The notes under the pieces are model-generated. The model was not told the DNA's origin. It was given only the letters and a program-made list of their open reading frames with translations, and made no database searches. Positions 13,630-58,783 of a stretch of 58,783 bases of DNA are shown one piece after another. Source of the DNA: Propionimicrobium lymphophilum DSM 4903 (GTDB lineage: Bacteria > Actinomycetota > Actinomycetes > Propionibacteriales > Propionibacteriaceae); assembly GCF_000423485.1 (NCBI RefSeq), contig NZ_AUIB01000009.1, positions 15,573 through 74,355 on the forward strand, read 5' to 3'. Position numbers and translations under genes: made by a program. Numbering within the stretch: the first letter of the stretch is position 1; every line of letters begins with the position of its first letter.

Positions 13630-13640
13630 GGAGTTTGGTT

Positions 13641-16283
13641 ATGGAGTTGAAGAAGTATCAAAACCGGGTGATCGCCGATCTAAAGGATTACCTCACGCAG
13701 GTCAACGAGCAGCCCACTCTGAGCGAAGCTTTCAAGATGTTTTGGGAGTCTCGCCAGATCGAGGTTGGCACCCCGCAGATGCCGGGCTACCAGAATGTGA
13801 TCGATGGCGTCCCGCACGTGTGTTACAAGGTCCCAACTGGAGGTGGGAAGACGTTTTTGGCGTGTGCGTCGGTGAAGCCGATATTTGAGGCTTTGCCGCC
13901 GACGCGGAAACAGGCTGTGGTGTGGCTGGTGCCGTCGGATTCGATTTTGACGCAGACGTTGGCGGCGTTGAAGAATTCCTCGCACCCGTATCGGCAGAAG
14001 CTGAATACTGATTTTGGTGGCCGGGTTGAGGTGTATTCGAAGGAAGAGTTGCTGGCGGGGCAGAATTTCAGCCCGTCGACGGTGGCTGAGCAGTTGTCGG
14101 TGATGGTGCTCTCGTATGACTCGTTCCGCTCACGGACAAAGGACGGGCGCAAGGCATACCAGGCCAATGGGAATCTCGCCTCGTTCGCGACTGCGTTTGG
14201 TGCCCCGGAGCAGCCGATCGAGAACGCGGATGAGACGGCTTTGTTTCAGGTGATTAACCAGTTGAATCCTGTGGTGATCGTGGATGAGTCGCATCACGCG
14301 ACGAGCACGTTAAGCCAGGAGATGCTCACGAATTTCAACCCTGCGTTCATTCTTGATTTGACCGCGACCCCGAAGCGGCAAGCGAACGTGATCTCGTATG
14401 TGGATGCGCTCTCGCTCAAGAACGAGAGCATGGTTAAACTTCCGGTCATCGCGTATAACCGGTCCTCACAGAAGGATGTTGTTACGGATGCGATCGATCT
14501 TCGCCGTTCTCTAGAGGTCGCCGCTACACAGCAGTATGAGAATGGTGGCGCTTATATTCGCCCGATCGTGTTGTTCCAGGCTCAGCCGAAGACGAGCGAG
14601 GATGCGACTTCGTTTGAGCGGTTGCGTGACAAGCTGGTTAAGGCGGGTATTCCTGCCGAGCAGATCGCGATCAAGACCGCCGACGTGAACGAGCTCAAGG
14701 GCGTGGACCTGCTGAGCGAGGAGTGTCCGATCAGGTTCATCATCACGGTGAACGCGTTGAAGGAAGGTTGGGATTGTCCCTTTGCCTACATTTTGGCGTC
14801 GTTGGCGAACAAGACCAGTCAGGTCGATGTTGAGCAGATCCTTGGCCGTGTTCTGCGCCAACCCCACGCGAAGAAGCAGCCGAACACGTTGTTGAACATG
14901 AGTTACGTGTTGACCTCCTCGAACGATTTCGGGGCCACGCTCAAACAGATCGTTGCGGGTCTCAACAGTGCTGGATTCTCCAAGCGTGACTTCCGTGCAG
15001 CCGATCAAGTTGCTTTCGACTTCACTGGCGCGAACCAGTCCAGTAAACCCGCCCCTACGTCGTCAGACTCAGTGGAAGGTATGGACGTTGAAGAGTTCCT
15101 GGAGTTCGATGAAGAACAGGTTGCAGCTGATCTGGATGCGCGCGAAGAATCCGCTAGTTCACCAGAGCCTTCGCCGGATCTGACGGTTGCTTCGATGATC
15201 GAGCAGGCGGCTCAGCAGGGTGCGGACTATGAGCAGGAGGCCGAAGAAGCCGCCCAGATGGGTGAGGGTTACGTTCCCTCGGATTTGGAGGATGCTGTGG
15301 ACACGAGCTTCGTCAACCCCGAATTCGCTGACGAGATCGAAACCCTTCGCCTTCCCCAATTCGTCATCCAAGAACCCGGATCAGCATTGTTCCCGACCGC
15401 TCATGAGGGATACAACGAGCTCAAGCACGAGGCACTAGCAGGTGACTTCGACTTGGCTACGAAAGACATCGATATCGACTTGTCGACGGCAGATGAACAG
15501 ATGTACAAGATCGACGTGCGAAAGGACTCCGAGGTTCCTAAAGCCTTCCGGATGTCGAGCACCGACCAAAAGTTCATGCGCGAACACTTCTCGAAACTGA
15601 GCATCGAAGGACAAAAACGTAACACAGCTGAAGCGATCTACCAACGGATCAAACCGATCAATTCGATCACTGACTCTGACTTGCGCGCATACATCGTGCG
15701 GATGGTTGAGGCCTTCGACACCGAGCAACTGCTGACCTATCAAGAACACCCGCATGCGGTAGCAAGCAAGGTCAAACAGAAAATTGACGGTCTTTTGGAA
15801 GCGCACAAGGTCAAGAGGTTCTATGAGGACATCGAGACCCGCCGCGTTGATGTTCAACCGCTCTATGCGTTCCCGAAAGCGATCCAGCCCGTTCATGCTT
15901 CCTCCCTGATTGGCGGCTCCCTGTATGAGGCCGAAGACAAGATGAACGGCTTTGAGCTCGAACTCGCTGGTCGCTTCTCTGGAATGGACAACGTTCGCTG
16001 GTGGCACCGTGTCATTGAACGCAAGGGCTTTTGCCTCAACGGGCCGTTCAACCACTACCCAGATTTCGTCGTGATGACCACCAGCGGCACCATCGTGGTT
16101 GTCGAGACCAAGGGCGAGCATTTGAAGAACGACGATTCTAACCGCAAGATCAGGCTCGGGCGGGCGTGGGCGAACATGTCTGGCAATGGTTATCGCTACT
16201 ACATGGTCTTCGAAGATGGCGTCACTCCACCTGACGGGGCGGTTACTTTGTCGGAGCTCGTGCGTATCCTCGAAAAGCTGTAG
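13641..16283 (+). CDS. res: Type III restriction enzyme Res subunit
   Basis: An 880-residue SF2 helicase-nuclease. The start ATG at 13641 has AAGGAG eight bases upstream. Helicase motifs: VPTGGGKTFLACASV (Walker A) near residue 68, VVIVDESHHATS (DESH) near 212, LDLTATPKR (motif III) near 238, and ILGRVLRQP (motif VI) near 412. An acidic linker sits around residues 475-560. Near the C-terminus YPDFVVMTTSG followed by VVVETKGEH gives the PD...E-x-K endonuclease site. Res translocates and cuts DNA between two head-to-head unmodified Mod sites. Key residues are all present. It is part of a single operon with Mod and the Hachiman genes. Confidence 0.95.
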   Translation: MELKKYQNRVIADLKDYLTQVNEQPTLSEAFKMFWESRQIEVGTPQMPGYQNVIDGVPHVCYKVPTGGGKTFLACASVKPIFEALPPTRKQAVVWLVPSDSILTQTLAALKNSSHPYRQKLNTDFGGRVEVYSKEELLAGQNFSPSTVAEQLSVMVLSYDSFRSRTKDGRKAYQANGNLASFATAFGAPEQPIENADETALFQVINQLNPVVIVDESHHATSTLSQEMLTNFNPAFILDLTATPKRQANVISYVDALSLKNESMVKLPVIAYNRSSQKDVVTDAIDLRRSLEVAATQQYENGGAYIRPIVLFQAQPKTSEDATSFERLRDKLVKAGIPAEQIAIKTADVNELKGVDLLSEECPIRFIITVNALKEGWDCPFAYILASLANKTSQVDVEQILGRVLRQPHAKKQPNTLLNMSYVLTSSNDFGATLKQIVAGLNSAGFSKRDFRAADQVAFDFTGANQSSKPAPTSSDSVEGMDVEEFLEFDEEQVAADLDAREESASSPEPSPDLTVASMIEQAAQQGADYEQEAEEAAQMGEGYVPSDLEDAVDTSFVNPEFADEIETLRLPQFVIQEPGSALFPTAHEGYNELKHEALAGDFDLATKDIDIDLSTADEQMYKIDVRKDSEVPKAFRMSSTDQKFMREHFSKLSIEGQKRNTAEAIYQRIKPINSITDSDLRAYIVRMVEAFDTEQLLTYQEHPHAVASKVKQKIDGLLEAHKVKRFYEDIETRRVDVQPLYAFPKAIQPVHASSLIGGSLYEAEDKMNGFELELAGRFSGMDNVRWWHRVIERKGFCLNGPFNHYPDFVVMTTSGTIVVVETKGEHLKNDDSNRKIRLGRAWANMSGNGYRYYMVFEDGVTPPDGAVTLSELVRILEKL

Positions 16284-16314
16284 GCGGGAAGGACACCTTT
16301 TGGGAGAAGACGAG

Positions 16315-17235
16315 ATGACACAGGCAACGATCACGCCAACGCTGCGCGGTGACACGTTCGCGTCCACGTTCACCGAGGTGGCGCATTCGAACATGTTAGG
16401 TCTTCGAAACGACGAACAGTTACGCCTGTTCCATCTGTCTGTCCAAAACAACCGCTTCGACCACACAGCCCTCGTCAAATTCCTCAAACGCAACGTTGGA
16501 CGCTACGTCTTCTCGCGCGCCGAATACGAAGGCTATAAGCAGCGAGACGATCTCGAAGAGGTCGCTCTCGACGCGGTGAACCGGATGCGTTCACAACAAG
16601 ACGGCATGGGGCTGGGCGAAATCTTGCTCTACGTCCTGCTCGAACAAATCCTCGAAGCACCCAAAGTGCTGAGTAAGATCGAGCTCAACCAGGCCCGAGG
16701 TCAGATCCACAGCCGCTGTGACGCCATCCACCTGCTCACACCAGACGGTCAGCGAACCACCAGCAGCATCGTGTTTGGAACCTCCAGTGTGGTCGGCAAC
16801 ATCGGTGATGCCATCACTGCAGCATTCGACCGCGTCGTAGATATTGAACAGCACCGAACACGCGAAGTTCAGCTCGCTGAGAATACCGTGTTCACCAAGA
16901 CCCTCGACGAAACGACCGCAGGGTACGTGAAGGATCTGTTGATCCCAAATCCTGGCGGGGCACCCGTGTTCGATACCGCTTATTCGATGTTCTTGGGCTA
17001 CGACATCGGTTTAGATCCGAAAAACTATGGCAACCAACAGTATCGGTCTGCGCTCGATCAGAAAATGCAGGGAGATATCGCCGCGCACGCCCAAATGATC
17101 GCCAACGAGATCAACACACGAAACCTCGATAATTACTCGTTCTACATCTACGTTTTGCCCCTCAATGAAGTAGACGTCGATGCGGGAACGATCATGGATG
17201 GGCTCGTGGGCGGGCCAGGTGGTAGCCATGTCTGA
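16315..17235 (+). CDS. hamA: Hachiman protein HamA (DUF1837)
   Basis: A 306-residue protein. Family features: GLGEILLYVLLEQILEAPKV with LSKIELNQARGQ (residues 99-130), SRCDAIHLL (D136), and VFGTSSVVGNIGDAITAAFD. In DUF1837 proteins that I know, the FG.. segment normally reads G-E-x-K and supplies the nuclease residues; here it reads GTSS (155-158). D136 and E102 are kept. HamA and HamB form the Hachiman antiphage complex, in which HamA is a nuclease held in check by the helicase. GGGAGAAG precedes the ATG. The stop overlaps the HamB start (ATGTCTGA). Family assignment is good; catalytic competence is uncertain. Confidence 0.82.
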   Translation: MTQATITPTLRGDTFASTFTEVAHSNMLGLRNDEQLRLFHLSVQNNRFDHTALVKFLKRNVGRYVFSRAEYEGYKQRDDLEEVALDAVNRMRSQQDGMGLGEILLYVLLEQILEAPKVLSKIELNQARGQIHSRCDAIHLLTPDGQRTTSSIVFGTSSVVGNIGDAITAAFDRVVDIEQHRTREVQLAENTVFTKTLDETTAGYVKDLLIPNPGGAPVFDTAYSMFLGYDIGLDPKNYGNQQYRSALDQKMQGDIAAHAQMIANEINTRNLDNYSFYIYVLPLNEVDVDAGTIMDGLVGGPGGSHV

Positions 17236-19867
17236 CAAGCAAGTAACCGTCGGCGAGCTCGTATTTTCCGACATTGATTCCAACAAATTTCTCAAACAGC
17301 TGTACGCAAACCTGCTCTACAACTACGGCTTACATCGGTTGGGGCTGGCGGATCGTCAACCGTACGATGTGGATCTTGAAGCAGCGCTGCGATTCGCTGA
17401 CCTGCTGTCGAAATCAACCCACCCCACCAGCCGTGACCGGCATAGGGTGTGGGCGCAAGAAATCGCGCTCCTGTGCCACATCCTCTACCCACAAGATGCG
17501 CGAACGAAAGCATATGTCCCTGCAATCTTCACCACGTTAGGTAACTACCCAGGCCTGAAGCAGTTGGGCGTGACTTCCGATGCGGGCATCCTTGACGCCG
17601 CATTCAATGCTTACCAGGCCGAGTACCTCACCGTGCCCGGTGACAAAACGATGAAGTTCTTCGCGCCGCAAAAGAAAATCTACGACCGCCTCACCGACGG
17701 CAAGTTTTCCTTCTCAGCCCCAACATCCTTGGGCAAGTCCTTCATCATGCGCACCTTCATCACCAACCAGATCAAATCCGGGGTGAAGGCCAACTTTGCG
17801 ATCATCGTGCCGTCAAAAGCGCTGATCAACGAGACCCGCTCGAAACTGATCGCTGACCTTGGCGAAGACCTTGAACGGCACAACTACCGAATCGTCAGTG
17901 CCGCCGGTGACATCGTGCTCGAAGGCGATCACAACTTCATCTTCGTACTCACCCCAGAACGCCTGCTTTACCTTCTGATCGGCAAACCTACGATCGAATT
18001 CGAGTACGTCTTTTTCGACGAATCACACAAACTCTCAGGCAAGAACAGCCGCGCCCCGTTCTACTACCAAACCGTGACAATCCTTCAACACCGCCACAAG
18101 CCACCACACTTCGTCTTCGCTTCACCCAACATTCCCAACCCAGAGGTATTCCTAAGGCTGGTTGACCCTAACTCTGACGAGAATGAAACCAACGCGGTCG
18201 CAACCCAGTATTCGCCAGTCGCACAATTCAAATACCTCGTCAACCTGCACGAGAACACCATCTCCAGCTACAACGACCACACCCAAGAATTCACGCACCT
18301 AGCCTCACTTCAAGCTCAGGACGCTACCGCACAGGGCATAACCCGATTTGTTAGTGAATCATCACAAGGTTCAGATCACCGTGGGCAAACCATCGTGTTC
18401 CATTCTGCCCGACATCACGCAGTGCAAGCGGCGCGTGCCTATGCCCAGGGTATGGCAGACCTCAATGATAAAGACTTGGACGCTCTCGCAAAAGACATCG
18501 AACGCGACGTCCACGAGGACTACTACCTCAGCGGTCTTATCCGTAGAGGCGTCAGCTACCACATCGGCTACCTTCCACCAGCAATCCGCGAACGCATCGA
18601 AGGTCTGTTCCGCGAAGGCAAAATCTCGACAATATTTTGTACCAGCACGCTTCTAGAAGGAGTCAACCTTCCCGCCGACAACCTCGTCATCACAACCAAC
18701 AAAATCGGCAGAGCAGGAATGACAGCAGTCGACTTCAAGAACCTGATCGGCCGAGTCGGGCGTATCGAGTTCAACCTCTACGGCAACGTATTCATCATCG
18801 TGGGCGACCAACTTGCATCCGAGCAAAAGGCCAAGGAACTCCTACAAGCGAACGTTCCTGCACAGAAGTTATCTGTGCAAACTGACTCACAAATTATCAG
18901 CAAGAAAATGAAGCAAGGTGTCGTCAAGGATCTACAGGAAGGTCGCATCGAATTCTCCAAAGGGAATGAGAGCTATGAGCGTTATGATATGAAACGCAAA
19001 TTCGGTCTCATGCTCTTGCGCGACATCACTACCGGACGTCAAAGCCTGGTGCGTGAAGAATTCTCCGACTACCTCGACGACCAAACCGTCAGCCGAATCC
19101 GAGAGTCCTTCGCGCAAAGAGAAGGGCAACAAGATGACGATATCAATGTCTCCGTTGACCAGGCAGAAGCGCTGACGTACACAATCCAAGCTGGACTCCA
19201 GTATCCACAACTTTCTCCAAACGGAAAGTTCAGTTACGACGAGACCCTCGCGTTTCTTCAGCGGCTTGCCTCAATCTTCAAATGGCGAATTTACAATCCC
19301 GAGACGTTAGGGAGAACAACCAAGGGAAGTGACCAACTCGCTATGCTGTCCTGGTACACCGTCCTCCTGTTGCAGTGGATGGAGGGACACGGTTTGCGTT
19401 CCATCATGAATCGTGCAATCGAGCATCACCGGAAAACTGGAATTGTGTGGATCAATCGGCAACCGAATCGCTACCTAGATTCGAAAGAACACCGAAACCT
19501 TGTTTTTAGTGACACGCTTGAAGCTATTGAGCAAGTAATCCTTTTTGAGCTATCGAATTACTTTCTTAAATTCTCCAACGAATACAAGAAGGTCCACGGA
19601 AAAGAGCAGTTCGACAACGACTGGTACGAGTACATCGAATACGGCACGACAAAGCAGGAAACCATCCTTCTCCAACGACTCGGATTCACCCGCGAGAGCG
19701 CCACCTACATTCGAACCAACGTCTTCAATGCGATCTTCCTTCACGAAGGAAAGCCCTACCTGAACCCGATTCTCCTCGAAAGCTCGAACATCAACGTCCG
19801 CAAAGAAGCCAACGAAATCAGATACAACGTGCCAGAAGCCTTCTCGATGCCAGCTTTTATGTTCTAA
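17228..19867 (+). CDS. hamB: Hachiman helicase HamB
   Basis: An 879-residue SF2 helicase. Motif I is FSAPTSLGKSF near residues 162-172, motif II YVFFDESHKLSG near 265, motif IV-V region FCTSTLLEGVNLPADNLVI near 475, and motif VI DFKNLIGRVGRI near 505. The ~370-residue C-terminal part contains no other domain I recognise. In Hachiman, HamB surveys DNA and releases HamA when it meets damaged or unusual DNA. The ATG overlaps the HamA stop by 8 bp, a strong sign of a two-protein complex. No gene follows in the operon; hairpins suited to termination lie 150-270 bp downstream. Confidence 0.88.
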   Translation: MSDKQVTVGELVFSDIDSNKFLKQLYANLLYNYGLHRLGLADRQPYDVDLEAALRFADLLSKSTHPTSRDRHRVWAQEIALLCHILYPQDARTKAYVPAIFTTLGNYPGLKQLGVTSDAGILDAAFNAYQAEYLTVPGDKTMKFFAPQKKIYDRLTDGKFSFSAPTSLGKSFIMRTFITNQIKSGVKANFAIIVPSKALINETRSKLIADLGEDLERHNYRIVSAAGDIVLEGDHNFIFVLTPERLLYLLIGKPTIEFEYVFFDESHKLSGKNSRAPFYYQTVTILQHRHKPPHFVFASPNIPNPEVFLRLVDPNSDENETNAVATQYSPVAQFKYLVNLHENTISSYNDHTQEFTHLASLQAQDATAQGITRFVSESSQGSDHRGQTIVFHSARHHAVQAARAYAQGMADLNDKDLDALAKDIERDVHEDYYLSGLIRRGVSYHIGYLPPAIRERIEGLFREGKISTIFCTSTLLEGVNLPADNLVITTNKIGRAGMTAVDFKNLIGRVGRIEFNLYGNVFIIVGDQLASEQKAKELLQANVPAQKLSVQTDSQIISKKMKQGVVKDLQEGRIEFSKGNESYERYDMKRKFGLMLLRDITTGRQSLVREEFSDYLDDQTVSRIRESFAQREGQQDDDINVSVDQAEALTYTIQAGLQYPQLSPNGKFSYDETLAFLQRLASIFKWRIYNPETLGRTTKGSDQLAMLSWYTVLLLQWMEGHGLRSIMNRAIEHHRKTGIVWINRQPNRYLDSKEHRNLVFSDTLEAIEQVILFELSNYFLKFSNEYKKVHGKEQFDNDWYEYIEYGTTKQETILLQRLGFTRESATYIRTNVFNAIFLHEGKPYLNPILLESSNINVRKEANEIRYNVPEAFSMPAFMF

Positions 19868-29927: not shown

Positions 29928-30060
29928 CTGATCTGTCGTCTCTCAAAACACCGTGGCTCGTAAACTACAATTATTGGTAAATGCGCTGCGATTCGGTTGC
30001 TGACCAGCTACTGCAAATTGCCTAGTGGTCGATCTCATCACTCGTGCGGAAGGGAGCGTC

Positions 30061-31110
30061 ATGGCCACAGAAGACAATAGTCGAACTGACGAGCCCAATA
30101 GACAGATGTTGATCTACCAGAGCCCAGAGAACACTGTACGTATCGAGGTCCGACTTGAGGGTGAGACGGTTTGGCTTACGCAGCAGCAGATGGCGGAGCT
30201 TTTTCAAAGTTCAAGGTCTAACATTGTCGAGCACATTGGAAACATCTACGCTGAGGGTGAACTTGATGAGGAGGCAACCTGTCGGGATTTCCGACAGGTT
30301 CGCCGTGAGGGTAGCCGCAACGTGGCGAGGACGCTGCCTCACTACAACCTAGACATGATTATTTCCCTGGGATATCGGGTTAAATCCAAGACTGCTACGC
30401 AATTTAGACGTTGGGCAACCGAGAGACTGAAAGAGTACCTCATCAAGGGCTTCACCCTAGATGATGAGCGACTTAAGAACCTTGGTGGTGGATCGTATTG
30501 GTACGAGCTTCTCGAGCGGATCCGCGATATCCGTTCGTCGGAGAAAGTGATGTACCGACAAGTGCTGGATCTATACGCAACTAGTGTTGACTATGACCCG
30601 AAGAGCGCGGAATCGGTCGCTTTTTTCAAGATGGTTCAGAACAAGTTGCATTACGCTACCCACGGGCACACAGCGGCGGAAATCATTTATAGCCGAGCCG
30701 ATGCTTCCAAACCTTTCATGGGCTTAACGACTTTCAAGGGCAATCAGCCTACTCTTGCAGAGACCAAGGTGGCCAAGAACTATTTGACGGAAGACGAATT
30801 AAAGGTGCTAAATCGTCTAGTTTCTGGTTACTTCGATTTTGCTGAAGTGCAGGCTATGAATCACCATCCGATGTACATGAGCGACTACGTCGAGCATCTT
30901 GACAATATCCTGGCAGCAACTGGGCAACAGCAGCTTCAAGGGGCAGGAAAAGTCAGCCACCAGAAAGCGATTGACAAGGCAACTGCTGAGTACCGTAAAT
31001 ATCAGGTACAGACACCTTCACAGGTCGAGAAGGACTATCTGGAAACCATTAAAGGGCTTGAATCAAGAGCCAAAAAGGCCGATCATGACATTCCTGATTC
31101 CGACGGATAA
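30061..31110 (+). CDS. RhuM family protein
   Basis: A 349-residue protein of the RhuM family, first named in a Salmonella pathogenicity island. ATG 30061 follows GGAAGGGAG; the frame is open 12 codons further. Motifs: VRLEGETVWLTQQQMAELFQ and SRSNIVEHIGNIYAEGELDE (a helix-turn-helix-like N-terminus, about residues 25-75), then GYRVKSKTATQFRRWATERL, then the C-terminal part with FFKMVQNKLHYATHGHTAAE. Standalone RhuM genes are frequent in defence and mobile islands, and a toxin-like role has been proposed, though the activity is not established. It is transcribed divergently from the ABC-F gene. Confidence 0.88.
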   Translation: MATEDNSRTDEPNRQMLIYQSPENTVRIEVRLEGETVWLTQQQMAELFQSSRSNIVEHIGNIYAEGELDEEATCRDFRQVRREGSRNVARTLPHYNLDMIISLGYRVKSKTATQFRRWATERLKEYLIKGFTLDDERLKNLGGGSYWYELLERIRDIRSSEKVMYRQVLDLYATSVDYDPKSAESVAFFKMVQNKLHYATHGHTAAEIIYSRADASKPFMGLTTFKGNQPTLAETKVAKNYLTEDELKVLNRLVSGYFDFAEVQAMNHHPMYMSDYVEHLDNILAATGQQQLQGAGKVSHQKAIDKATAEYRKYQVQTPSQVEKDYLETIKGLESRAKKADHDIPDSDG

Positions 31111-31341
31111 GCTGAATTCAAGAAGACGTGAAGACAGATAACTCGTTGACATTGTCCGAACTCCCTAGTGTCGAACTAGCTGGCGGAAGGCAAGAATCGC
31201 CCCCGCTAGCCAAAACGTGCTTCGGAATCCGAAAGAAGAAAATTACCCGTGATGGGGTAATGAGGCCCACAAAACTTGCCGAATTGATCTTGAAAACAAA
31301 AACCTCCTACTCAGCGGAAGGTTCTCGTTCTCACGTAACAG

Positions 31342-31391
31342 TTATCAAATCCGACGTCTTTGTCTCCACTAGGACGCTCATTTTGATACAA
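31342..31391. repeat. 14-nt-loop inverted repeat, copy C
   Basis: TTATCAAATCCGACGTC (31342-31358) pairs imperfectly with GACGCTCATTTTGATACAA (31373-31391). The loop is 14 nt, TTTGTCTCCACTAG, and shares CCACTAG with copy A. It is inverted relative to copy B. It lies between the converging RhuM and Abi_2 genes. Confidence 0.7.
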
Positions 31392-31470
31392 AGTGGGGCT
31401 AATACCCAAAGTGGGCTGAAAGTCTGCCTTTGAGCGCTGACGGGTATGAGTGTGGGTTTTATTGCAAGGA

Positions 31471-32400
31471 CTAGGAGGTTTTGGTTGCCCAGAGAGGATT
31501 TTCTTGCCAATTTTCTGGTGCGCCGAGCCTACTGAAGGGCACAAGATCGTTATGAGGGAATTTCTTCAAGACGCTAGGTAGCGTCTCGGTTCCTGACAGC
31601 TGCAGTTCATGCAACAGGCACTGGGCAAGAGTGAGTTGCCCAAAAGCACGGTTAGTGCACCGGCTCACGGCTTTAAGGCACGGGTCTTTCGGCAGTTTGG
31701 GTTTGACATCGAATACCCTGTTGAACATGCGAGCATGATGGGCTGAATAGTTACGCACAATATTGAGGCACTTTAGCCATGATTCAAGTTGGGGTGCGCG
31801 AAGCCTGCACCTGGCAGCTATTTCATTGCGTGCCCGGTTAGGTGCCATCCGGTACAGATGTGAAAGCATTCCCCAATCCATTACTTCCACGGCCACCCAG
31901 ATAGGAAGTTTGCCTCCATATTGGCGACGGTGATGCTCAACAAACTCTTCTCTCGATGTCTGAAGCACAGCTTCATATTTCGTCAACCACACCTCGTGAG
32001 CGTTCCCGCTACTATTGCGATAACGCTGACGGGCTGGGGCACCCATGCGCGTAGCGTCAAGATGGATAAGCGGATTGACAGCTCCTAGCTGATGCCCGAT
32101 TAATGCCCGCATCGCTAGCTCGATACGTCCAAGAACAATAAAAACACTGTCCCGTAACTGCTCATCAAAGTGGTAAAGATCGAGAACCAATTCGAAAGAG
32201 GCACCTGGACGGAAAACATTAAGGCTTTGACCAGTTTCGCGATCAAGGGCTCGCATGGAATGCCAGTAGCCAGACAGGCGATAGTAATTTAATATTTCAA
32301 GTTGCTGAGCTGCCTGATCAAGGTTTTTAACACTCATGCCACGATGGGCAAGCAGTTCTATCTGCTGCTTGTATGAGAGGAAAGGTTTCACCTGATCCAC
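31471..32400 (-). CDS. Abi_2 (AbiD/AbiF) family abortive infection protein
   Basis: A 309-residue Abi_2 protein. I chose GTG 32400 because GGGAGG lies seven bases upstream; the frame is open to 32415. It starts VKPFLSYKQQIELLAHRGMS and has LNYYRLSGYWHSM, FDEQLRDSVFIVLGRIELAMR and, near residue 215, the R-x4-6-H type segment IVRNYSAHHARMFNR typical of HEPN-like RNases. AbiD/AbiF proteins block phage growth at the cost of the cell. The gene is preceded by a structured region (32425-32489), which fits the known abiF RNA arrangement. The protein is complete. Confidence 0.9.
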   Translation of the reverse strand: MDQVKPFLSYKQQIELLAHRGMSVKNLDQAAQQLEILNYYRLSGYWHSMRALDRETGQSLNVFRPGASFELVLDLYHFDEQLRDSVFIVLGRIELAMRALIGHQLGAVNPLIHLDATRMGAPARQRYRNSSGNAHEVWLTKYEAVLQTSREEFVEHHRRQYGGKLPIWVAVEVMDWGMLSHLYRMAPNRARNEIAARCRLRAPQLESWLKCLNIVRNYSAHHARMFNRVFDVKPKLPKDPCLKAVSRCTNRAFGQLTLAQCLLHELQLSGTETLPSVLKKFPHNDLVPFSRLGAPENWQENPLWATKTS

Positions 32401-32424
32401 CTTTGCACCTCCCACCTGAAAGAA

Positions 32425-35681: not shown

Positions 35682-35878
35682 TTGCTGGCATCTGTGCTGC
35701 TGTTTATGAAAGTGAATAGGCATATTACTGGGTCTGGCATAGAGAGGAAGATAGAAACTGGGGGGCAACAAGTTTGGTCACCACGACGGAAAATACCTTC
35801 AGCTATGCTCTGTTGCCAGTAGAATGGAAACCGTCTGGTGTGTTTTGTTCATTTTCTAAGTTGCGGGGGAGAAGCGTA

Positions 35879-37042
35879 ATGTCTGCGAAACTGCGTATAG
35901 CGCCTCCTCTTTACGAGTGGGCGTTGGCGCGCAGTAGGAAAACCGTCACAGACCTCGAGAAAATTTTTCCGAAATTGCCTGAATGGATATCTGGAGTTAG
36001 CGTTCCTACTTTTACAGATGCAGAAAAATTCGCTGCCAAAACTAATACGCCTTTCGCTTTTCTTTTTCTTGATACTCCTCCCGAAGAAGACCTGCCTATA
36101 GCCGATATGCGTACGCTTAAAGACTTTGCGATTCGCCAGCCTTCCGGGGATTTGCTCGACACTATTTACAATGCGCAACGCACCCAGGATTGGTATCGCG
36201 ACTATGCCCTAAGCAACGGGGCAGAAAAGTTGTTTTTTGTGGGTTCCGTAGGCGTGAATAATAACGTGAGCGAAGTAGCAGCTGAAATCAGTGATCTCCT
36301 TGATTTTGGGTTTGATTCTCGAAAACGAATTGGCAATATGTCCAGTTTGTATCGCTACTTGGTCGACAAGATCGAAGAACTCGGAATCCTGGTGCTTACT
36401 AACGGAGTGGTAGGAAACAATACTCATAGAAAACTACGTGTCGAGGAGTTTCGGGGTTTTTCTTTAAGCGATGAGATTGCGCCTCTTATTTTTGTCAATG
36501 GAGCTGACGGTTATTCTGCGAGAATCTTTACCCTTTTACACGAACTAGGGCATATCTGGCTTGGTCATAGCGCATTGTCCGACGCGGATTTATCTCTCAA
36601 CGATTCCAATAGCGCAAAATCTGAGGAGCGCTGGTGTAACCAACTCGCGGGGGAGATCCTACTTCCTAAGGATGTTCTTGAGGGCATGCGCGATACCAAG
36701 ATCACCGAAGAATCTGTTACTAAACTTGCGCGAGAAGCTGGCTGCAGCGTCCTGGTGGTGCTGCACAGCCTTTTTGATGCCAACTTTCTTAGCTGGAGCC
36801 AGTATCAGGAACTATATGGCCGGGAGCTGAGCGCGATAGCCGAAAGAGAAAGCAAGGGGAAGCAAACCGGGGGCGGAGATTTTTATAAAACTCTGCCTCT
36901 GCGCAACTCTCCTACATTTACCCGCGCTGTGATTGTCTCTACTTTAGAGGGGACTACTCTTTATCGGGATGCCTTTCGGATGCTCGGCACTAAAAAGCCT
37001 CAAACTTTCCGTAACCTGGCCGAAAAGCTGGCGGTGAGTTAA
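35879..37042 (+). CDS. ImmA/IrrE family metallopeptidase domain protein
   Basis: A 387-residue protein. ATG 35879 follows GGGGGAGAAG; the frame is open 35 codons earlier without a ribosome site. The zinc-peptidase motif is LLHELGHIWLGHS (HExxH) near residue 225, and a downstream acidic region (EERWCNQLAGEILLPKD) supplies the third ligand. The N-terminal ~80 residues (PPLYEWALARSRKTVTDLEK) look like the helical domain often found in place of an XRE repressor. The next gene, starting at the base after this stop, is a DUF4411 PIN-like protein; this pair occurs as a toxin-antitoxin-like module in many bacteria, with this protein as the likely antitoxin. Confidence 0.88.
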   Translation: MSAKLRIAPPLYEWALARSRKTVTDLEKIFPKLPEWISGVSVPTFTDAEKFAAKTNTPFAFLFLDTPPEEDLPIADMRTLKDFAIRQPSGDLLDTIYNAQRTQDWYRDYALSNGAEKLFFVGSVGVNNNVSEVAAEISDLLDFGFDSRKRIGNMSSLYRYLVDKIEELGILVLTNGVVGNNTHRKLRVEEFRGFSLSDEIAPLIFVNGADGYSARIFTLLHELGHIWLGHSALSDADLSLNDSNSAKSEERWCNQLAGEILLPKDVLEGMRDTKITEESVTKLAREAGCSVLVVLHSLFDANFLSWSQYQELYGRELSAIAERESKGKQTGGGDFYKTLPLRNSPTFTRAVIVSTLEGTTLYRDAFRMLGTKKPQTFRNLAEKLAVS

Positions 37043-37537
37043 ATGTATGTGCTGGATAGCAATGTTTTTATCGAAGCCAAAAACCGGTATTACGGATTCG
37101 ATATCGCTCCGGGATTTTGGGAATGGCTAGAGCGTGTCTATATGGCCGGGAAAATCTGCAGTATTAAACCGGTTTATGATGAACTAGCTACCGGGGATGA
37201 CGAACTTGCAGATTGGGTAAAGATGCATCCACATAAAGGGATGTTTACTGCTATCGATGGTGATCAGGCTATTTATAATTTTGTCAATCAAATTACGACT
37301 TGGGCAAAAGGTAAAGATTATAAACCTGCAGCGACACAGAAGTTTGCGGACTGCGCAGATCCATTTTTAATCGCTTTCGCTGCAGCTCACGGATATACAG
37401 TAGTAACTAATGAGCGCCCAGAACCTGATTCTCGAAGATCAGTAAAAATTCCTGACGTCTGTAAAGCGTTTGACGTAGAATACTGCGACACCTTTACTAT
37501 GTTCCGTTCGACCGGCGCTCAGCTGGTACTTAGATAG
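37043..37537 (+). CDS. DUF4411 PIN-like toxin
   Basis: A 164-residue protein starting with MYVLDSNVFIEAKNRYYGFD, the first acidic motif of PIN RNases. Further PIN-type residues are VYDELATGDDEL, FADCADPFLIAFAAAHGYTV and VVTNERPEP. DUF4411 proteins are paired with ImmA/IrrE-type genes and are predicted to be RNA-cutting toxins. The ATG follows directly after the stop of the upstream gene, so both are translated together. About 200 bp without a gene follow. Confidence 0.85.
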   Translation: MYVLDSNVFIEAKNRYYGFDIAPGFWEWLERVYMAGKICSIKPVYDELATGDDELADWVKMHPHKGMFTAIDGDQAIYNFVNQITTWAKGKDYKPAATQKFADCADPFLIAFAAAHGYTVVTNERPEPDSRRSVKIPDVCKAFDVEYCDTFTMFRSTGAQLVLR

Positions 37538-51485: not shown

Positions 51486-51558
51486 GTCCCCGTCGTCTAG
51501 GGGCCTAGGACACCGCCCTTTCAAGGCGGCAACGGCGGTTCGAATCCGCTCGGGGATA
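51486..51558 (+). tRNA. tRNA-Glu (UUC)
   Basis: A complete cloverleaf of 73 nt with no encoded CCA. The acceptor GTCCCCG pairs with CGGGGAT, with G1 opposite U72. The D-arm region is TCGTCTAGGGGCCTAGGA, the anticodon stem CCGCC/GGCGG holds the loop CTTTCAA with anticodon TTC at 51520-51522, and the T-arm contains GGTTCGAATCC. The integrase gene of the adjoining element begins 135 bp downstream, so the 3' end of this tRNA is the probable attachment site. Confidence 0.95.
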
Positions 51559-51629
51559 CGACGCAAACACCATTTGACTAGGTGTTTTAGCGGTTATGGG
51601 AGCGTTGAGAACCCCCTTGGCCAAGCGCG

Positions 51630-51668
51630 CGTGCCACTACGTGCCACCTCCTTAGGTGGTGGCAGGTT
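51630..51668. promoter_or_regulatory. Probable integrase arm-binding / control repeats
   Basis: GTGCCACTAC and GTGCCACCTC are tandem, and TGCCACC pairs with GGTGGTGGCA across TCCTTA. The short repeats lie between the tRNA and the integrase start, where arm-type attachment sites or the integrase operator are expected. Confidence 0.4.
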
Positions 51669-51692: not shown

Positions 51693-53306
51693 ATGACAAG
51701 ACGCAAAACAACCCCAAAACGTTCACAACTTGGCTCAATTCGTCAATTGCCGTCTGGCAGGTGGCAAGCCAGATATAAAGTTGAAGCGCAAACTTTCAAA
51801 GCGCCAATGACTTTTGAAACCCGCCAAGAAGCAAACAACTGGCTAGCTGGTGAGTTCGCAGACAGGGCTAGGGGTATCTGGGTTAACCCGCTAGGTAACC
51901 CGCTAGGCCAATACGCAACCAACTGGCTAGAAAGCCGGGTAGACCTAGCTAGAAACAGCCGTGAGCGCTACAAGTGCATGATTAACCGCTATATCTTGGC
52001 AGACTACGACGGCTTTAGCCTTGCACCCATCCCCCTAGGCCAAATCAGCCCCCAACACATTCGCAAGTGGCTAACACTGGTGGCAGCTAAGGCAGAACAA
52101 TCAAGCCTTGCAAGGGAAGCGCCTAAGCCGGTTGTGTGTGATGAACCAACCACCCACCCAGCACGAGCTTGGGGACTTGCAAACGGTTGGAAAGTTAAAC
52201 CAAGCGGCAAGCTGCCTAAAGAACTCAAACAAGCTTGGGCTAAAGCTTGCCCCAAACAAGCAAAGGCCTATAAGCGCCCTCGCTCTAAAGGCGAAGATAA
52301 AACCGGGTACGCCAAACAGATTAGAGCTTGGGGAATGGAAAACGGTTGGCAGCTTTCAGCAAGTGGCAGGCTACCCGTTGACCTAACTAAAGCTTGGCTA
52401 GCCCACCACAGTTACCAGCAGGCCCAAGACAACCAAGAAGACGGCCAAGACCAAAACCACGTTAAGCCAGGAGCCCCAACCACAGCTAAGGCATATGCCA
52501 CCCTTAGAACAATCTTTAACGCGGCTATCACAGATGGACTATTGCACTTTAACCCTTGCCGAATCAGGGGAGCAGGCCAATGCAAAGCAATGGAGCGCAC
52601 CCCGGCAACCGTTGAGCAGGTTCAAGCCATAGCCGACCTAATGCCAAAACAACTAGCTAGCGCGGTAATAGTGGCAGCATGGAGCGGCCTAAGGCGCGGG
52701 GAACTGTTCGCACTAGCAAGAAAACATGTTGACCTTGAAACCGGGGCGATCAGAGTTGAACGCACACTAACCAGGCAGCGAACATTTAGCACCCCCAAAA
52801 CCGCAAGCAGCGTTAGAACCGTCTACCTACCTAGTTTTGTTCTAGACGTGCTAGCCAAACACATGGACACCTACACCCGCCACCACCCAGACGCATTGAT
52901 ATGGGCAGGCGAGACAGGCGAACCAATCAGGCAAGCGACCGTTAGCACCTATTACCGAAAAGCACGCGAACAAGTAGGCAGACCTGATTTACGTTGGCAC
53001 GACCTAAGGCACACAGGCGCAACGCTGGCATACCAAGCAGGTGGAAACGTTAGAGACGTGCAAAGGCGGCTAGGACACTCAACCGTTAGAGCCGCCATGA
53101 TCTACGCACACGCAGCAGATAAAGGGGATCAAGTGCTAGCCGAACGACTAGACGAAGCGTTTAACCCCAACAGACCACCAGAACCCACACAGCCCCAACC
53201 GCCAACCACCACACCAACCCAGCAGCCAGACCACGAAGACACCCAAACACCAACAGTTCAAAGACCAGCGTTGCGCCTAATTCAAGGCGGAAAGGCAATA
53301 GCATGA
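51693..53306 (+). CDS. Tyrosine integrase with two Lsr2-like motifs inserted in the core-binding domain
   Basis: A 537-residue integrase. ATG 51693 follows AAGGG; GTG 51669 is possible. The N-terminal AP2-like arm-binding part is SIRQLPSGRWQARYKVEAQT, and the core-binding helices start near residue 72. Between the helix QHIRKWLTLVAAK (121-133) and its usual continuation TTAKAYATLRTIFNAAITDG (263-282) lies an extra ~130 residues with two motifs: WGLANGWKVKPSGKLPKELK (160-179) and WGMENGWQLSASGRLPVDLT (213-232). Both fit the Lsr2 DNA-binding pattern W-x4-G-x7-G-[RK]-[LI]-P. Catalytic residues follow: GLRRGE (R334), WHDLRHTGATL and the Tyr in MIYAHA. It should integrate the element at tRNA-Glu. 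Confidence 0.88.
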   Translation: MTRRKTTPKRSQLGSIRQLPSGRWQARYKVEAQTFKAPMTFETRQEANNWLAGEFADRARGIWVNPLGNPLGQYATNWLESRVDLARNSRERYKCMINRYILADYDGFSLAPIPLGQISPQHIRKWLTLVAAKAEQSSLAREAPKPVVCDEPTTHPARAWGLANGWKVKPSGKLPKELKQAWAKACPKQAKAYKRPRSKGEDKTGYAKQIRAWGMENGWQLSASGRLPVDLTKAWLAHHSYQQAQDNQEDGQDQNHVKPGAPTTAKAYATLRTIFNAAITDGLLHFNPCRIRGAGQCKAMERTPATVEQVQAIADLMPKQLASAVIVAAWSGLRRGELFALARKHVDLETGAIRVERTLTRQRTFSTPKTASSVRTVYLPSFVLDVLAKHMDTYTRHHPDALIWAGETGEPIRQATVSTYYRKAREQVGRPDLRWHDLRHTGATLAYQAGGNVRDVQRRLGHSTVRAAMIYAHAADKGDQVLAERLDEAFNPNRPPEPTQPQPPTTTPTQQPDHEDTQTPTVQRPALRLIQGGKAIA

Positions 53307-53665
53307 CCAACCAGCAAGCAAACCCAGCTAGCCCCATCTATTTAGCCACATGCCCACCTTGGTGTAACCAAAAGCACCCCATCTTGATTAGTGCAGACCA
53401 AGACCCGCTAGCCGATCAACTTGGCGCAAGCGAGCTTATAGACCACGCAACCGAACTAGTTGCAGATAGCCACGGCCTAGCCGTTGAGCTAGTTCAGACC
53501 CAAAAGCTGCAAGGCGACCAGCTCAAAGACCACCCCGCCGCGCTTAACGTCTACATTGACGGGAACACAGCGGCCACAGGCCTAAGCCCCAACGACCTAA
53601 AAGCGTGGAGCACAGCACTACAACTAGCAGCAGACCTAGCCAACGAGGTGACCAAATGGCACTAG
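53303..53665 (+). CDS. DUF6907-like small protein
   Basis: A 120-residue protein overlapping both integrase genes (4 bp ATGA on the left, 10 bp on the right). The N-terminal TCPPWCNQKHP resembles the CP.WC..H segment of DUF6907 proteins of actinobacteria; the C-terminal half (SPNDLKAWSTALQLAADLAN) is helical. Position between two recombinases suggests a role in their control or in directionality, but nothing in the sequence proves this. Confidence 0.6.
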   Translation: MTNQQANPASPIYLATCPPWCNQKHPILISADQDPLADQLGASELIDHATELVADSHGLAVELVQTQKLQGDQLKDHPAALNVYIDGNTAATGLSPNDLKAWSTALQLAADLANEVTKWH

Positions 53666-54786
53666 AAACCAAAGACCAATGGCAAGCAGCGCTAGAAGGT
53701 TGGCAGCGTTCAAAGCAAATGCAAAAGCTAGCCAGTTCTACCCAACACGAATTAATCAAACGGCTAAACCAATTCGCCAAACAGATAACCCCGCTAGGGC
53801 CATGGCAAGTAACCCGAAAAGACATTAATGGCTGGCTAGCCGCTAAAGACCTAAGCGCAAACAGCAGGTACCACCGCAAAGCAGCGCTAAGGAACTTCTA
53901 CAGGTGGGCACAAGCTCAAGGCCGAATAAAAGATAACCCAGCCGATGAAACAGCCCACCCACTTGCCATAGAAGTGCCAAGCGAGTGGCAGAAATCACTA
54001 AACCAATTTGCTACATGGCAAAAATCTAAAGGTCATTCAGCAAACACGTTAAAGAAATACCGAGAAAAGCTAAGCCAGCTAGCGAACGAAACAGGAGCGC
54101 CAACCCCGTGGCGGCTATCAGCAAGCGAGCTAGCAGAATGGATAGGCGGGCATACATGGAGTAGAGAAACCGCAAGACAGGCAAGAACGTGCCTAAGGTG
54201 TTTTTACAGGTGGGCTAACAAATTCGGTTACACGCCAACCAACCCAGCACTAGCGCTAGACCCGGTTAGAACCGTGCCAGCGCTACCAAGACCAGCAAGC
54301 GAAAACGCCTACCACCAAGCACTAGACGAAGCAGGCCCAAGAGTTGATCTAATGCTAAGACTTTCAGCCCAATTAGGGCTAAGGCGTAGCGAAGTGGCAG
54401 CGCTGCACACAAGCGACCTAAACCCTGATAGCTACGGTGGCTATTGGCTAGACGTGTTAGGCAAAGGTGACAAGCGTAGAGCCGTGCCAGTACCAGACGA
54501 GTTAGCCGCCATGATTAAGCAACGGCCTAAGGGCTGGCTATTCCCAAACGGTAAAGGAGGCCACCTAAGCGCCCACTACGTTGGCAAGCTAGTGGCAAAC
54601 ACATTGCCCGAAGGCGTGACTATGCACCAGCTAAGGCACCGTTTTGCAACCAGGGCATACCAAGCAAGCCGCGATATATACGCCGTGCAACAACTTCTAG
54701 GACACTCAAGTCCAGCAGTGACCCAACGATATGTAGCAATAGACCTAGGGCAACTACGCACCGTAGTTAACGCCGTAGCAAGCTAG
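53656..54786 (+). CDS. Second tyrosine recombinase, with duplicated core-binding domain
   Basis: A 376-residue recombinase. ATG 53656 follows GAGGTG. It has two tandem SAM-like core-binding domains: about residues 5-95 (EGWQRSKQMQKLASSTQHEL to ALRNFYRWAQAQGRIKDNPA) and about 105-200 (NQFATWQKSKGHSANTLKKY to CLRCFYRWANKFGYTPTNPA). They resemble each other. Catalytic residues are R in QLGLRRSEVAAL, HQLRHRFATRAY, HSSPAVTQRY (final Tyr). It is encoded in one operon with the first integrase, so the element uses two recombinases or one acts in resolution. Confidence 0.88.
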   Translation: MALETKDQWQAALEGWQRSKQMQKLASSTQHELIKRLNQFAKQITPLGPWQVTRKDINGWLAAKDLSANSRYHRKAALRNFYRWAQAQGRIKDNPADETAHPLAIEVPSEWQKSLNQFATWQKSKGHSANTLKKYREKLSQLANETGAPTPWRLSASELAEWIGGHTWSRETARQARTCLRCFYRWANKFGYTPTNPALALDPVRTVPALPRPASENAYHQALDEAGPRVDLMLRLSAQLGLRRSEVAALHTSDLNPDSYGGYWLDVLGKGDKRRAVPVPDELAAMIKQRPKGWLFPNGKGGHLSAHYVGKLVANTLPEGVTMHQLRHRFATRAYQASRDIYAVQQLLGHSSPAVTQRYVAIDLGQLRTVVNAVAS

Positions 54787-55777: not shown

Positions 55778-56008
55778 ATGAAGGACACAGCTAGCACTTC
55801 TACTAACTCACTTGCTACTGACAAACTTTTAACTTGTAGGCAAGCAGCACAATTAGCGGGCATAGATGAACGTTCTATGCGTACGCAGTTTAATAACCGT
55901 CGTTTTGAACTGGTCAAACTTGGCAGACGCATCTATGTGCGAACAAGCACGCTAGAACAATTCGTTAACTCCAACACCTTGCCAAGCGCCAAGGAGATGG
56001 AACAGTGA
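55778..56008 (+). CDS. Excisionase-family HTH protein
   Basis: A 76-residue protein with a MerR/excisionase-type winged helix: LLTCRQAAQLAGIDERSMRT, then RRFELVKLGRRIYVRTSTLE. GAAGGAAAACC precedes the ATG. The first gene of the Rep operon, it could direct excision of the element or regulate replication. It overlaps the next gene by 4 bp (GTGA). Confidence 0.82.
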   Translation: MKDTASTSTNSLATDKLLTCRQAAQLAGIDERSMRTQFNNRRFELVKLGRRIYVRTSTLEQFVNSNTLPSAKEMEQ

Positions 56009-56355: not shown

Positions 56356-56663
56356 TCGAAGTCAGGTTAAGCACCGACAAAAAAGGCTTTCATGACCACG
56401 ACGCAGCAAAAGAAGCAATCTCTAAACTACTTTGCGAACTTAACCCCAAAGCCCAAGTAACCGTGATTTTCTCCTTGGATAATCACGACTACGACCAACC
56501 GCACGAATGGACAATAAACCTAATAGCCCAACGGCTAGCGGCTTACCCACTTGTAAAAATTGAGTTCAAAGCCCTTAAAACTTCGGTTGCTGAAAGCTGG
56601 GAACAAGCGCTAAAGACTGCAAGGCAGAAGCTGGCAGGCGCTAAGGCGGTGAAACGTGGTTAA
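56346..56663 (+). CDS. Hypothetical protein of the Rep operon
   Basis: A 105-residue protein with an alternating strand-helix pattern (MAIIEVRLSTDKKG, QVTVIFSLDNHDYD, LVKIEFKALKTSV) and a basic C-terminus (KLAGAKAVKRG). No family is recognised. Overlap with both neighbours (10 and 8 bp) places it in the replication operon. Confidence 0.5.
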   Translation: MAIIEVRLSTDKKGFHDHDAAKEAISKLLCELNPKAQVTVIFSLDNHDYDQPHEWTINLIAQRLAAYPLVKIEFKALKTSVAESWEQALKTARQKLAGAKAVKRG

Positions 56664-57909
56664 ACAAAACCAGCAGCAACAACCACCTTGGCAACTGCCA
56701 GATCTATCAAAGGCCAGCAGCGAGCAAGAACCCCCTTGGGCATCATGGTGGCAATGTCCCGAAGGCCAAGCCGCTAATACTTGGATACCGGCAAACATGG
56801 AAGAAGTATTAGCGGGGAACTTAGAAGCGCCAAAACCAACGATAGCGCCAAGAGAGGACGGCATTTGCCTACTTTACAAAGGAGAAACCCACGCATTTAA
56901 CGGCGAATCAGAATCAGGCAAATCACTAATAGCCCAAGCAATTGCGGCAAGCATAATAAGTCAAGGCGATGATGTTTTATACCTAGATTTTGAATCAAAC
57001 AAAAGAGCCGTAACAAGAAGACTAATAGACATAGGAACACATAAAGAAGACATTGTTAAACACTTTGCATATGTCAGCCCAGATAGCCCACACAACAACC
57101 GCAATATTGACGGAAAACCTACTAGCAACAACTTAGGAATGGCTAGCGAAGTGTTCGAACAGGTCGCACAATTCCCATGGAAATTAGTTGTTATTGACGG
57201 GGTAGAAGCAGCGCTAAGCCTTTATGCGGCAGACTCAAACAGTAGCAACGACGTATGGGCATGGCAGCGCGCGCTACCGATGAAGTTAGCCGAAAGTTCA
57301 GGCGCGGCAGTCGTGCTAATCGACCATGTTGTTAAGAACAAAGACGCTCGGGGACGTTTTGCGGTAGGCAGTCAAGCAAAGTTAGGAGCGATTACAGGAG
57401 TGACTTACCTAATCGAACCGATAAGCCAAATAGGCAAAGGTTTAGAAGGAGAAGTGAAGATACTTCTAGCAAAAGACCGGCTAGGTGATTTAAGGCAACA
57501 TTGCATACCAGAGCGCGAAAACCTATCCAGGATAACCACCGTTAATATCGACTCAACCAGACCAGACGGCCCAATTATTTTCACGTTCCGAACACCGATA
57601 GACGACAAAGGCAACTTTAGGCCTACCGCAATGATGGAAAAGCTATCGAAGTTCATCGAGGAACAAAATAAACGGGGTAATTATCCTCAACAGGGCGCGG
57701 TAACGGATTATCTAAAAGATGTAGGAGTTAAAGGAAGAACCACCACCAAGATTAAAGCGCTGCAAATCTTGATAGATGAAGGATATGTGCGCGCAGACCG
57801 CAAAGGACAAGCGCGACTACATACGAGCCTTAAGCCATATAGGCAGGAAGACGACCCACTATCTGACAGGTATAAGCCCCAACCCAAACTAGTTGAGCAA
57901 CAGGAATAG
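56656..57909 (+). CDS. RepA-like RecA-fold ATPase (replicative helicase type)
   Basis: A 417-residue ATPase, start GTG 56656 after AAGGCGGTG. The RecA-like core (about residues 60-300) has Walker A FNGESESGKSLIAQA near residue 85, DVLYLDFESNKRA, and Walker B KLVVIDGVEAALSLY. GAAVVLIDHVVKNKD and GSQAKLGAITGVTYLIEP follow. This is the arrangement of RSF1010 RepA-type/AAA_25 helicases used by plasmids and integrative elements. The C-terminal ~80 residues form a winged-helix-like region (GAVTDYLKDVGVKGRTTTKI). A palindrome-rich region follows, so the element may replicate on its own after excision. Confidence 0.82.
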   Translation: MVKQNQQQQPPWQLPDLSKASSEQEPPWASWWQCPEGQAANTWIPANMEEVLAGNLEAPKPTIAPREDGICLLYKGETHAFNGESESGKSLIAQAIAASIISQGDDVLYLDFESNKRAVTRRLIDIGTHKEDIVKHFAYVSPDSPHNNRNIDGKPTSNNLGMASEVFEQVAQFPWKLVVIDGVEAALSLYAADSNSSNDVWAWQRALPMKLAESSGAAVVLIDHVVKNKDARGRFAVGSQAKLGAITGVTYLIEPISQIGKGLEGEVKILLAKDRLGDLRQHCIPERENLSRITTVNIDSTRPDGPIIFTFRTPIDDKGNFRPTAMMEKLSKFIEEQNKRGNYPQQGAVTDYLKDVGVKGRTTTKIKALQILIDEGYVRADRKGQARLHTSLKPYRQEDDPLSDRYKPQPKLVEQQE

Positions 57910-58611: not shown

Positions 58612-58700
58612 ACAAGCAAGGCGGGCAAGTCGTGAACATGTTTATTTAGGCGAATGTTTAACGGCGACTAACAAGACGGTCAGGCCGTTGGTTGGTGGTT

Positions 58701-58755
58701 CATCGTCTGGCAGCTGGCAGGTTGTCCATCGTCTGGGTAGTGGTTCATTGTCTGG
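58701..58755 (+). repeat. CATCGTCTGG direct repeats
   Basis: CATCGTCTGG at 58701 and 58727 and CATTGTCTGG at 58746, embedded in a GGT/TGG-rich tail that runs to the window edge. The array may continue outside. Confidence 0.55.
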
Positions 58756-58783
58756 CTGGTTGGTGGTCAGCTGGTTGGTGGCT

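Follow-up and report, generated by a model that had tools for sequence, protein, structure and literature searches.

In actinobacteria, foreign DNA is silenced by Lsr2. Its C-terminal domain (PF23359; structures 2kng and 6qkp) is a helix-loop-helix built on a frame of W, G, V and G-R. The integrase modules described here share this frame and differ in having S or T as the first residue of the core tripeptide (16/16 motifs), in lying inside another domain, and in being unaccompanied by the Lsr2 dimerisation domain. The host enzymes resemble the complex tyrosine recombinases (the IntTn916 subgroup with the pSAM2 cluster, as presented in the available part of PMC8138268) in their core-binding and catalytic domains, putative arm-binding-type domain, tRNA attachment site and catalytic residues, but the loop between helices B and C of their core-binding domain has 72-138 residues instead of 11-30. 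Added parts are already a known variation in tyrosine recombinases, to judge from the examples in that part of PMC8138268: two core-binding domains in RitA, an inter-domain helix in TnpA and, in IntTn916 members, a beta-stranded part inserted into the catalytic domain. Lsr2 does not occur in the main text of this survey. A further parallel, by analogy only, is Ler, which has VGR in place of Q/RGR and, according to the available sections of PMC4466236 and PMC6936261, places only one arginine into the minor groove. Its AT-hook-like core is likewise cut to one basic residue, but Ler is an H-NS family regulator and not a module in an enzyme (PMC4466236, same sections). Gbn (PMC9239103) was considered as a similar actinobacterial module and set aside, as the accessible text of that paper does not speak of Lsr2 homology. 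The initial annotation of the present locus knew of no described Lsr2-integrase fusion, and we likewise found none in open-access PubMed Central, where a passing mention may be missed; as far as searched, an Lsr2 fold inside an integrase core-binding domain is new.

The integrase gene and its predicted domains

The window analysed here is a 58,783-nucleotide stretch of the Propionimicrobium lymphophilum DSM 4903 genome. The integrase gene lies at 51693..53306 on the plus strand, where it had been annotated, and encodes 537 amino acids from its ATG (PF00589, E 2.9e-21). An AAGGG stretch, seen by eye, precedes this ATG, and an alternative in-frame start upstream (GTG 51669) would give 545 amino acids. 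In the 545-residue numbering R342, K377, H444, R447, H470 and Y479 are all in place (and invariant in the three rows of alignment A1), so that the protein has the full catalytic set of the tyrosine recombinases, with Y479 as the nucleophile. The domain and module residue numbers below count from ATG 51693.

The full-length protein was modelled with AlphaFold2 from an alignment of 32 integrase rows that contained no Lsr2 sequence, and the mean pLDDT was 82.6. The N-terminal domain (residues 14-59; 51732..51869, plus strand) is modelled as three strands and one helix; it gave no family match to arm-binding domains, and on this predicted fold we regard it as a putative arm-binding-type domain. 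According to the model and its superpositions, the first part of the core-binding domain (residues 68-142; 51894..52118, plus strand) ends with helix B, and the fold resumes after the insert with helix C (residues 261-280; 52473..52532, plus strand). The catalytic domain follows at residues 300-492 (52590..53168, plus strand; Pfam match and superposition). The full model superposed on the integrase structures 6en2 (Z 20.4, rmsd 4.4 Å, 289 residues) and 1z19 (Z 17.6, rmsd 3.5 Å, 264 residues). The predicted core-binding fold runs across the insert, with an rmsd of 2.0 Å over 95 residues of 2kj9 (model range 69-293) and of 2.3 Å over 108 residues of the 118-residue core-binding domain chain 2kd1 (model range 63-302). 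The model thus contains both the SAM-like core-binding fold and the catalytic fold, and the enzyme is best explained as an integrase of the complex kind, with putative arm-binding, core-binding and catalytic domains.

Two Lsr2-type modules in the core-binding domain

Two Lsr2-type motifs had been proposed at residues 157-183 and 210-236, between helices that are normally contiguous in integrases. We found both. Module 1 (52158..52247, plus strand; helices 156-163 and 176-185) has its core at W160-W182 with the tripeptide SGK, and module 2 (52302..52430, plus strand; helices 204-216 and 229-246) at W213-W235 with SGR. The Lsr2 DNA-binding profile PF23359 matches the integrase in two stretches at 33.7 bits (E 2.2e-8), above its curated cut-off of 26.9, and the Lsr2-like PHROG families match as well (phrog_1223, E 2.7e-10; phrog_6269, E 5e-4), which supports the Lsr2-type assignment. 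The unnamed phrog_31427 also matches, and integrase residues 122-193 match the host's own Lsr2 of 111 amino acids (E 6.6e-5). The dimerisation domain of Lsr2, PF11774, had no match in the integrase at E up to 1. The integrase is not an Lsr2 protein: it lacks PF11774 and begins with a putative arm-binding-type domain.

The loop between helices B and C measures 11-30 residues in 50/50 aligned insertless integrases (mostly 12-14 in the insertless sister integrases), 72-85 in 12/12 single-module integrases, and 138 in the window's enzyme. The insert therefore does separate helices that are normally contiguous, and the possibility that the motif belongs to a common integrase linker, which the initial annotation had named as a reason to abandon its reading, does not agree with the short loop in all 50 insertless enzymes. 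Among the integrases read in this analysis, only the window's carries two modules. Their 23-residue cores are 52% identical, and as DNA the two motifs share 72% identity across 74 nt, with a spacing of 159 nt. The simplest reading is therefore that 53 codons were duplicated in tandem and in frame. When PF23359 was compared with ten further members, nine matched at E 3.2e-4 or better (four above and five below the cut-off) and one did not match. One member, L153, has the tripeptide TGA and no Pfam match to the Lsr2 domain.

The full-length model places helix-loop-helix units at 156-185 and 204-246, between helix 120-142 and helix 261-280. As ten-residue means, pLDDT is 90-93 for residues 161-190 and 74 for 151-160 around module 1; for module 2 it is 73-82 over 211-240, with 61 before and 45 after. 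The structure-match list (VIA, PDB) of the full-length model contained no Lsr2 entry. Module 1 was also modelled alone from four rows (mean pLDDT 69), and a Foldseek search against 350,542 PDB chains then gave three matches at E up to 10. The top two were Lsr2 C-domains, 2kng (0.8 Å over 29 columns, E 1.6) and 6qkp (E 2.3), with VIA Z values of 3.6 and 3.8. Each of these scores is weak, as is expected of so small a domain, but the ranking is specific. Structure prediction, which had been suggested as a check, hence returned for the modules a predicted Lsr2-like arrangement of two helices and a long loop, with the two Lsr2 C-domains ranking first at weak E values.

Core tripeptide and constraint on the module

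At the position of the Lsr2 RGR the integrases carry TGR, SGR, SGK, TGK, TGQ or TGA. S or T replaces the first R in 16/16 motifs ([ST]G[RKQA]), and the Q/RGR AT-hook-like core occurs in none of the 16. The comparison set consisted of PF23359 matches outside these integrases, drawn from 60 genomes of the class. RGR was present in 30/30 top loci; 48 further reads, of which 47 are distinct and one repeats L245, began with R in 46 cases, K in one and Q in one; and six other Lsr2-module proteins all had R first (RGR in five, RGP in one). Altogether R, K or Q comes first in 83/83 distinct matches outside these integrases and in no integrase motif. L197, a small Lsr2-like phage protein from beyond that sample, is an exception with SGK and was found by a pattern requiring S or T; the other six of seven viral Lsr2-like proteins with a visible core have R first (RGA in L192). 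A terminal W, as opposed to Y or F, was considered as a diagnostic of integrase modules and dropped, since it also occurs in L068, L174, L193, L249-L251 and L299.

The remainder of the motif is conserved. All 16 motifs keep the W, the G and the terminal W, across proteins that are only about 40% identical, and tripeptide position 3 is R or K in 14/16, which points to change and not to mere decay. With the first Arg replaced by Ser or Thr and the last basic residue mostly kept, the module would be expected to make contact through a single basic side chain, weakly and with little sequence or AT preference. In the L070/L198 pair, two integrases on one IMG/VR contig, the motif ±5 codons has a dN/dS of 0.20 at 88% identity, and the adjoining linkers have 0.615 at 34% identity; in this codon comparison the module is under constraint while the linkers diverge. 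The distant L157-L159 group goes partly in the opposite direction, with motif-only dN/dS of 0.66-1.14 that rest on very few changes. The net charge of the motif is small (mean +1.25 vs +1.07 in Lsr2; -3 in L043, which has TGQ). In the stretch before the module it is +2 to +8 in 12/13 members measured and 0 in the window's enzyme.

Lsr2 modules with RGR are also fused to other proteins, namely an RNase_T exonuclease (L248), a D12 adenine methylase (L249) and an ERCC4-domain protein (L250), as well as to an SMP-30-like (L251) and a DUF6461 protein (L252) that are not DNA-acting by their Pfam names. In these fusions the module is terminal (C-terminal in four, N-terminal in L252) and of the RGR type, whereas the integrase modules are internal and of the [ST]G type.

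Distribution of insert-bearing integrases

A profile covering the insert together with the helices on either side was run against genome samples, and the best 8 candidates per genome were scored in the order sample and the best 11 in the class and phylum samples. The search for further integrases with the insertion, another proposal of the earlier reading, turned up enzymes that carry a single module at this position. Among 391 genomes of the order, at least 7 gave strong matches (E 1e-22 or better), our own included (G000, G008, G103, G153, G166, G190 and G309); after a clear gap in E, the next matches, at 3e-11, were ordinary integrases aligned mostly over helix C. At least 34 of 394 genomes of the class matched at E up to 1e-9, and the insert was read in an open reading frame in at least 10 of the 394, again with our own (G000, G103, G153, G166, G494, G734 and G746, with divergent forms in G448, G594 and G729). 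The match in G630 proved to be an Lsr2-like protein, not an insert-bearing integrase, and in the other 23 the match began no earlier than profile position 66. Because some genomes are in both samples, these counts are not to be added. At a stricter limit (E up to 1e-12) the phylum sample gave our own genome alone (1/396) among the matches listed. Of the partial matches, to which G318:C45 and G063:C85 also belong, those that were read are not insert-bearing integrases: L050, L057, L060 and L062 are without the insert, L068 is a different protein with RGI, and L174 is Lsr2-like with RGR.

Other searches gave little. Single-protein scans found no insert-bearing relative in genome contigs, where one distant Lachnospiraceae integrase fragment matched, and no relative with the insert in viral contigs; with L070 as query, only its own contig was returned. 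A DNA-pattern search yielded three contigs: one with two insert-bearing integrases, that of L197, and L199, in which a motif search found no Lsr2-type motif. Integrase queries matched 1629, 316, 908 and 55 records in phage and plasmid collections. The three of these that were examined (Gordonia phage Finkle, MT835972 and plasmid pTC1) have no insert, and the L070 module region alone had no match in phages. The two insert-bearing integrases on IMG/VR contig L198 (IMGVR_UViG_2917752670_000006) lie 6.4 kb apart, which suggests tandem elements. In G153, the frame of the insert-bearing integrase L044 ends early, without the C-terminal catalytic motifs, and the gene is probably decayed.

Most related integrases are without the module. 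In a tree built without the insert columns (LG+G4, no mixture), the insert label needs three changes, at least two of which are forced by well-supported branches. A separate gain of the module is likely in the distant L157/L158 lineage, which lies about five changes per column away and whose position carries a long-branch warning.

The integrated element and its attachment sites

The integrase gene starts 133 bp past a tRNA-Glu(ttc) gene (51486..51559, plus strand; ARAGORN), the integration target of the element. A repeat search placed the attL core, which consists of the 3' part of the tRNA gene plus 5 bp, at 51518..51564 (47 bp, plus strand), and attR is an identical 47-bp copy on another contig of this genome, C12 (L208 10099-10145, minus strand). 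Since the window end (58700-58775) and the end of C12 also share an identical 76-base overlap, the element closes, with 7,575 bp from attL start to attR start. As read from the sequence, the two sites show past integration of the element only. The contig end carries low-complexity GGTTGGTGG-type repeats (window 58630-58783), and it was there, inside the element, that the assembly broke.

Downstream of the integrase the element encodes a small open reading frame that overlaps the integrase stop (53303..53665, plus strand; a weak DUF6907 match at 22.5 bits, cut-off 26), a second tyrosine recombinase (53656..54786, plus strand; ATG start in a frame that opens at 53605), an HTH_17 small protein that is a candidate excisionase (55778..56008, plus strand; 25.8 bits, cut-off 27), and an AAA_25 ATPase (56656..57909, plus strand; Pfam), which we take to be RepA-like. 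Two SAM-like core-binding stretches are recognisable in the second recombinase (PF02899 and PF13495, each twice), a likeness to the RitA recombinases of PMC8138268 as far as the available part portrays them. A recombinase of the G734 element (L215:14994-16436, minus strand) matches two SAM-like profiles at different places, neither stretch being significant alone.

Three more insert-bearing elements could be closed within single contigs, one at tRNA-Thr (16,173 bp; 46-bp repeat) and two at tRNA-Gly (7,823 and 7,958 bp; repeats of 46 bp with one mismatch and of 42 bp). In all four closed elements, tandem putative arm-type repeats flank the core at both ends. These are of CGTGCCA- and CGTGGACTC-type and are repeated two or three times at a spacing of 10 or 11 bp. 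In the window two copies of CGTGCCAC with 10-bp spacing are found at 51630..51647 (plus strand; repeat search), and a matching putative pair beside attR (L208, reverse complement 256-274) has a spacing of 11. With arm repeats kept at both ends, the N-terminal domain seems still to have its sites, and the module would be an addition and not a substitute. The att arms are not AT-rich (AT 0.35-0.56 vs 0.27-0.50 for whole elements), and seven of the eight lie slightly above their own element, by 0.004 to 0.10.

The spacing of the left repeats was compared between groups. Among 13 insert-bearing rows, seven passed a shuffle test at p 0.05, all with 10 bp; among 34 insertless rows, 20 passed, with 11 bp in 16, 10 bp in two and 9 bp in two. 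L070 was outside this test, as it has no upstream DNA. The contrast of 10 vs 11 bp (Fisher p 4e-5) is a lead only, since the groups are clades, the insert-bearing rows being mostly one, and since the window's right pair is spaced at 11 bp. Outside the Fisher table, 12 additional insertless rows gave one more that passes, at 9 bp.

Other genes in the window

The window also contains a type III restriction-modification pair (11860-16283; PADLOC MTase_III, E 1.8e-142, and REase_III, E 1.1e-85), directly followed by a Hachiman pair, HamA and HamB (16186-19867; PADLOC E 6.7e-138 and 0); the reading frames overlap as listed. At 30025-32415 there is a RhuM-family protein (PF13310) with an Abi_2/AbiD abortive-infection protein on the opposite strand, perhaps more of the same defence island. 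Genes for an IrrE-type peptidase protein (PF06114) and, after it, a DUF4411 protein (35774-37537) likely form a two-gene unit that looks like a toxin-antitoxin pair.

Discussion

Our best explanation, put forward tentatively, is that the module is an accessory DNA-contact module of low specificity that helps to assemble the recombination complex. A complex tyrosine integrase would have captured the Lsr2 C-terminal fold in the loop that joins helices B and C of its core-binding domain. The module would then give an added DNA contact, either next to the core site or on the DNA that separates core from arm sites, and this contact would steady the bent, multi-protomer recombination complex; in the window's enzyme, the duplicated module would raise valency. 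We infer the contact itself, its place and its role in complex assembly from the Lsr2 homology, the predicted fold, the dN/dS constraint and the positive stretch before the module, together with the three fusions of the module to proteins with DNA-acting Pfam domains (L248-L250). Because the att arms are not AT-rich and the arm repeats are kept, an extra DNA contact with little AT preference is favoured. Against this explanation stand the structural scores (Foldseek E 1.6 and 2.3, Z 3.8 and 3.6, pLDDT 69 for the module alone), the small motif charge with L043 at -3 and TGQ, the TGA of L153 and its missing Pfam match, the dN/dS of 0.66-1.14 in L157-L159, the two of five other fusions that are not on DNA-acting enzymes, and the fact that the module is missing from most related integrases. 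We favour DNA contact first, a protein-protein role next, and AT reading or an anti-Lsr2 role third.

A bolder version of this idea, which we consider unlikely, is that the integrase acts as its own architectural protein. The retuned silencer fold would shape att DNA by general minor-groove contact and replace a host bending factor, the duplicated form would let one protomer bridge two DNA segments, and the 10-bp (vs 11-bp) arm spacing would be a footprint on site design.

The strongest competitor, possible though doubtful, is that DNA contact has been lost and that the module serves as a protein-protein scaffold, packing between the protomers of the tetramer or docking the excisionase. The DNA-reading first Arg is indeed gone in 16/16 motifs, two members are without a basic residue at position 3, and what persists is the glycine with a hydrophobic frame (W, V/L/I, W). 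An altered protomer packing would also fit the arm spacing of 10 bp (7/7) vs mostly 11 bp (16/20 insertless). However, the C-domain is the DNA-binding part of Lsr2, three of the five other fusions are on DNA-acting enzymes, R or K follows the glycine in 14/16 motifs, and the spacing contrast is confounded by clade, with the window's own right arm pair at 11.

The initial annotation had suggested that the modules could read AT-rich target DNA or compete with Lsr2. On this reading, targeting of AT-rich DNA or rivalry with host Lsr2 over silenced regions would steer integration or lift the silencing of the element. Its premise of Lsr2-type modules stands and the host Lsr2 is present, but AT reading as proposed does not agree with the absence of RGR or QGR from the 16 motifs or with arms whose AT content (0.35-0.56) is not rich in absolute terms, the excess in 7/8 arms being little. 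Furthermore, integration at tRNA 3' ends via 42-47-bp repeats, identical or with one mismatch, indicates sequence-specific sites. There are precedents in the accessible portions of two papers, in which phage-encoded Lsr2 proteins are proposed to interfere with host Lsr2 (PMC10276819) and Ler, with half a hook, relieves H-NS silencing (PMC4466236). Nevertheless, we regard this explanation as distinctly improbable. A neutral passenger, that is, a tolerated domain insertion without a role, would agree with the rarity of the module and its lack in most related integrases, but is very unlikely given the invariant W, G and W across proteins of about 40% identity, the purifying selection on the module beside fast linkers in the L070/L198 pair, and the apparent second gain in another integrase lineage.

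The consistent change in the DNA-reading loop constitutes a direct test of the role of that loop, and the insertless sister integrases provide a natural deletion to copy. A silencer fold inside the enzyme by which foreign elements enter the chromosome connects xenogeneic silencing with site-specific integration within a single protein.
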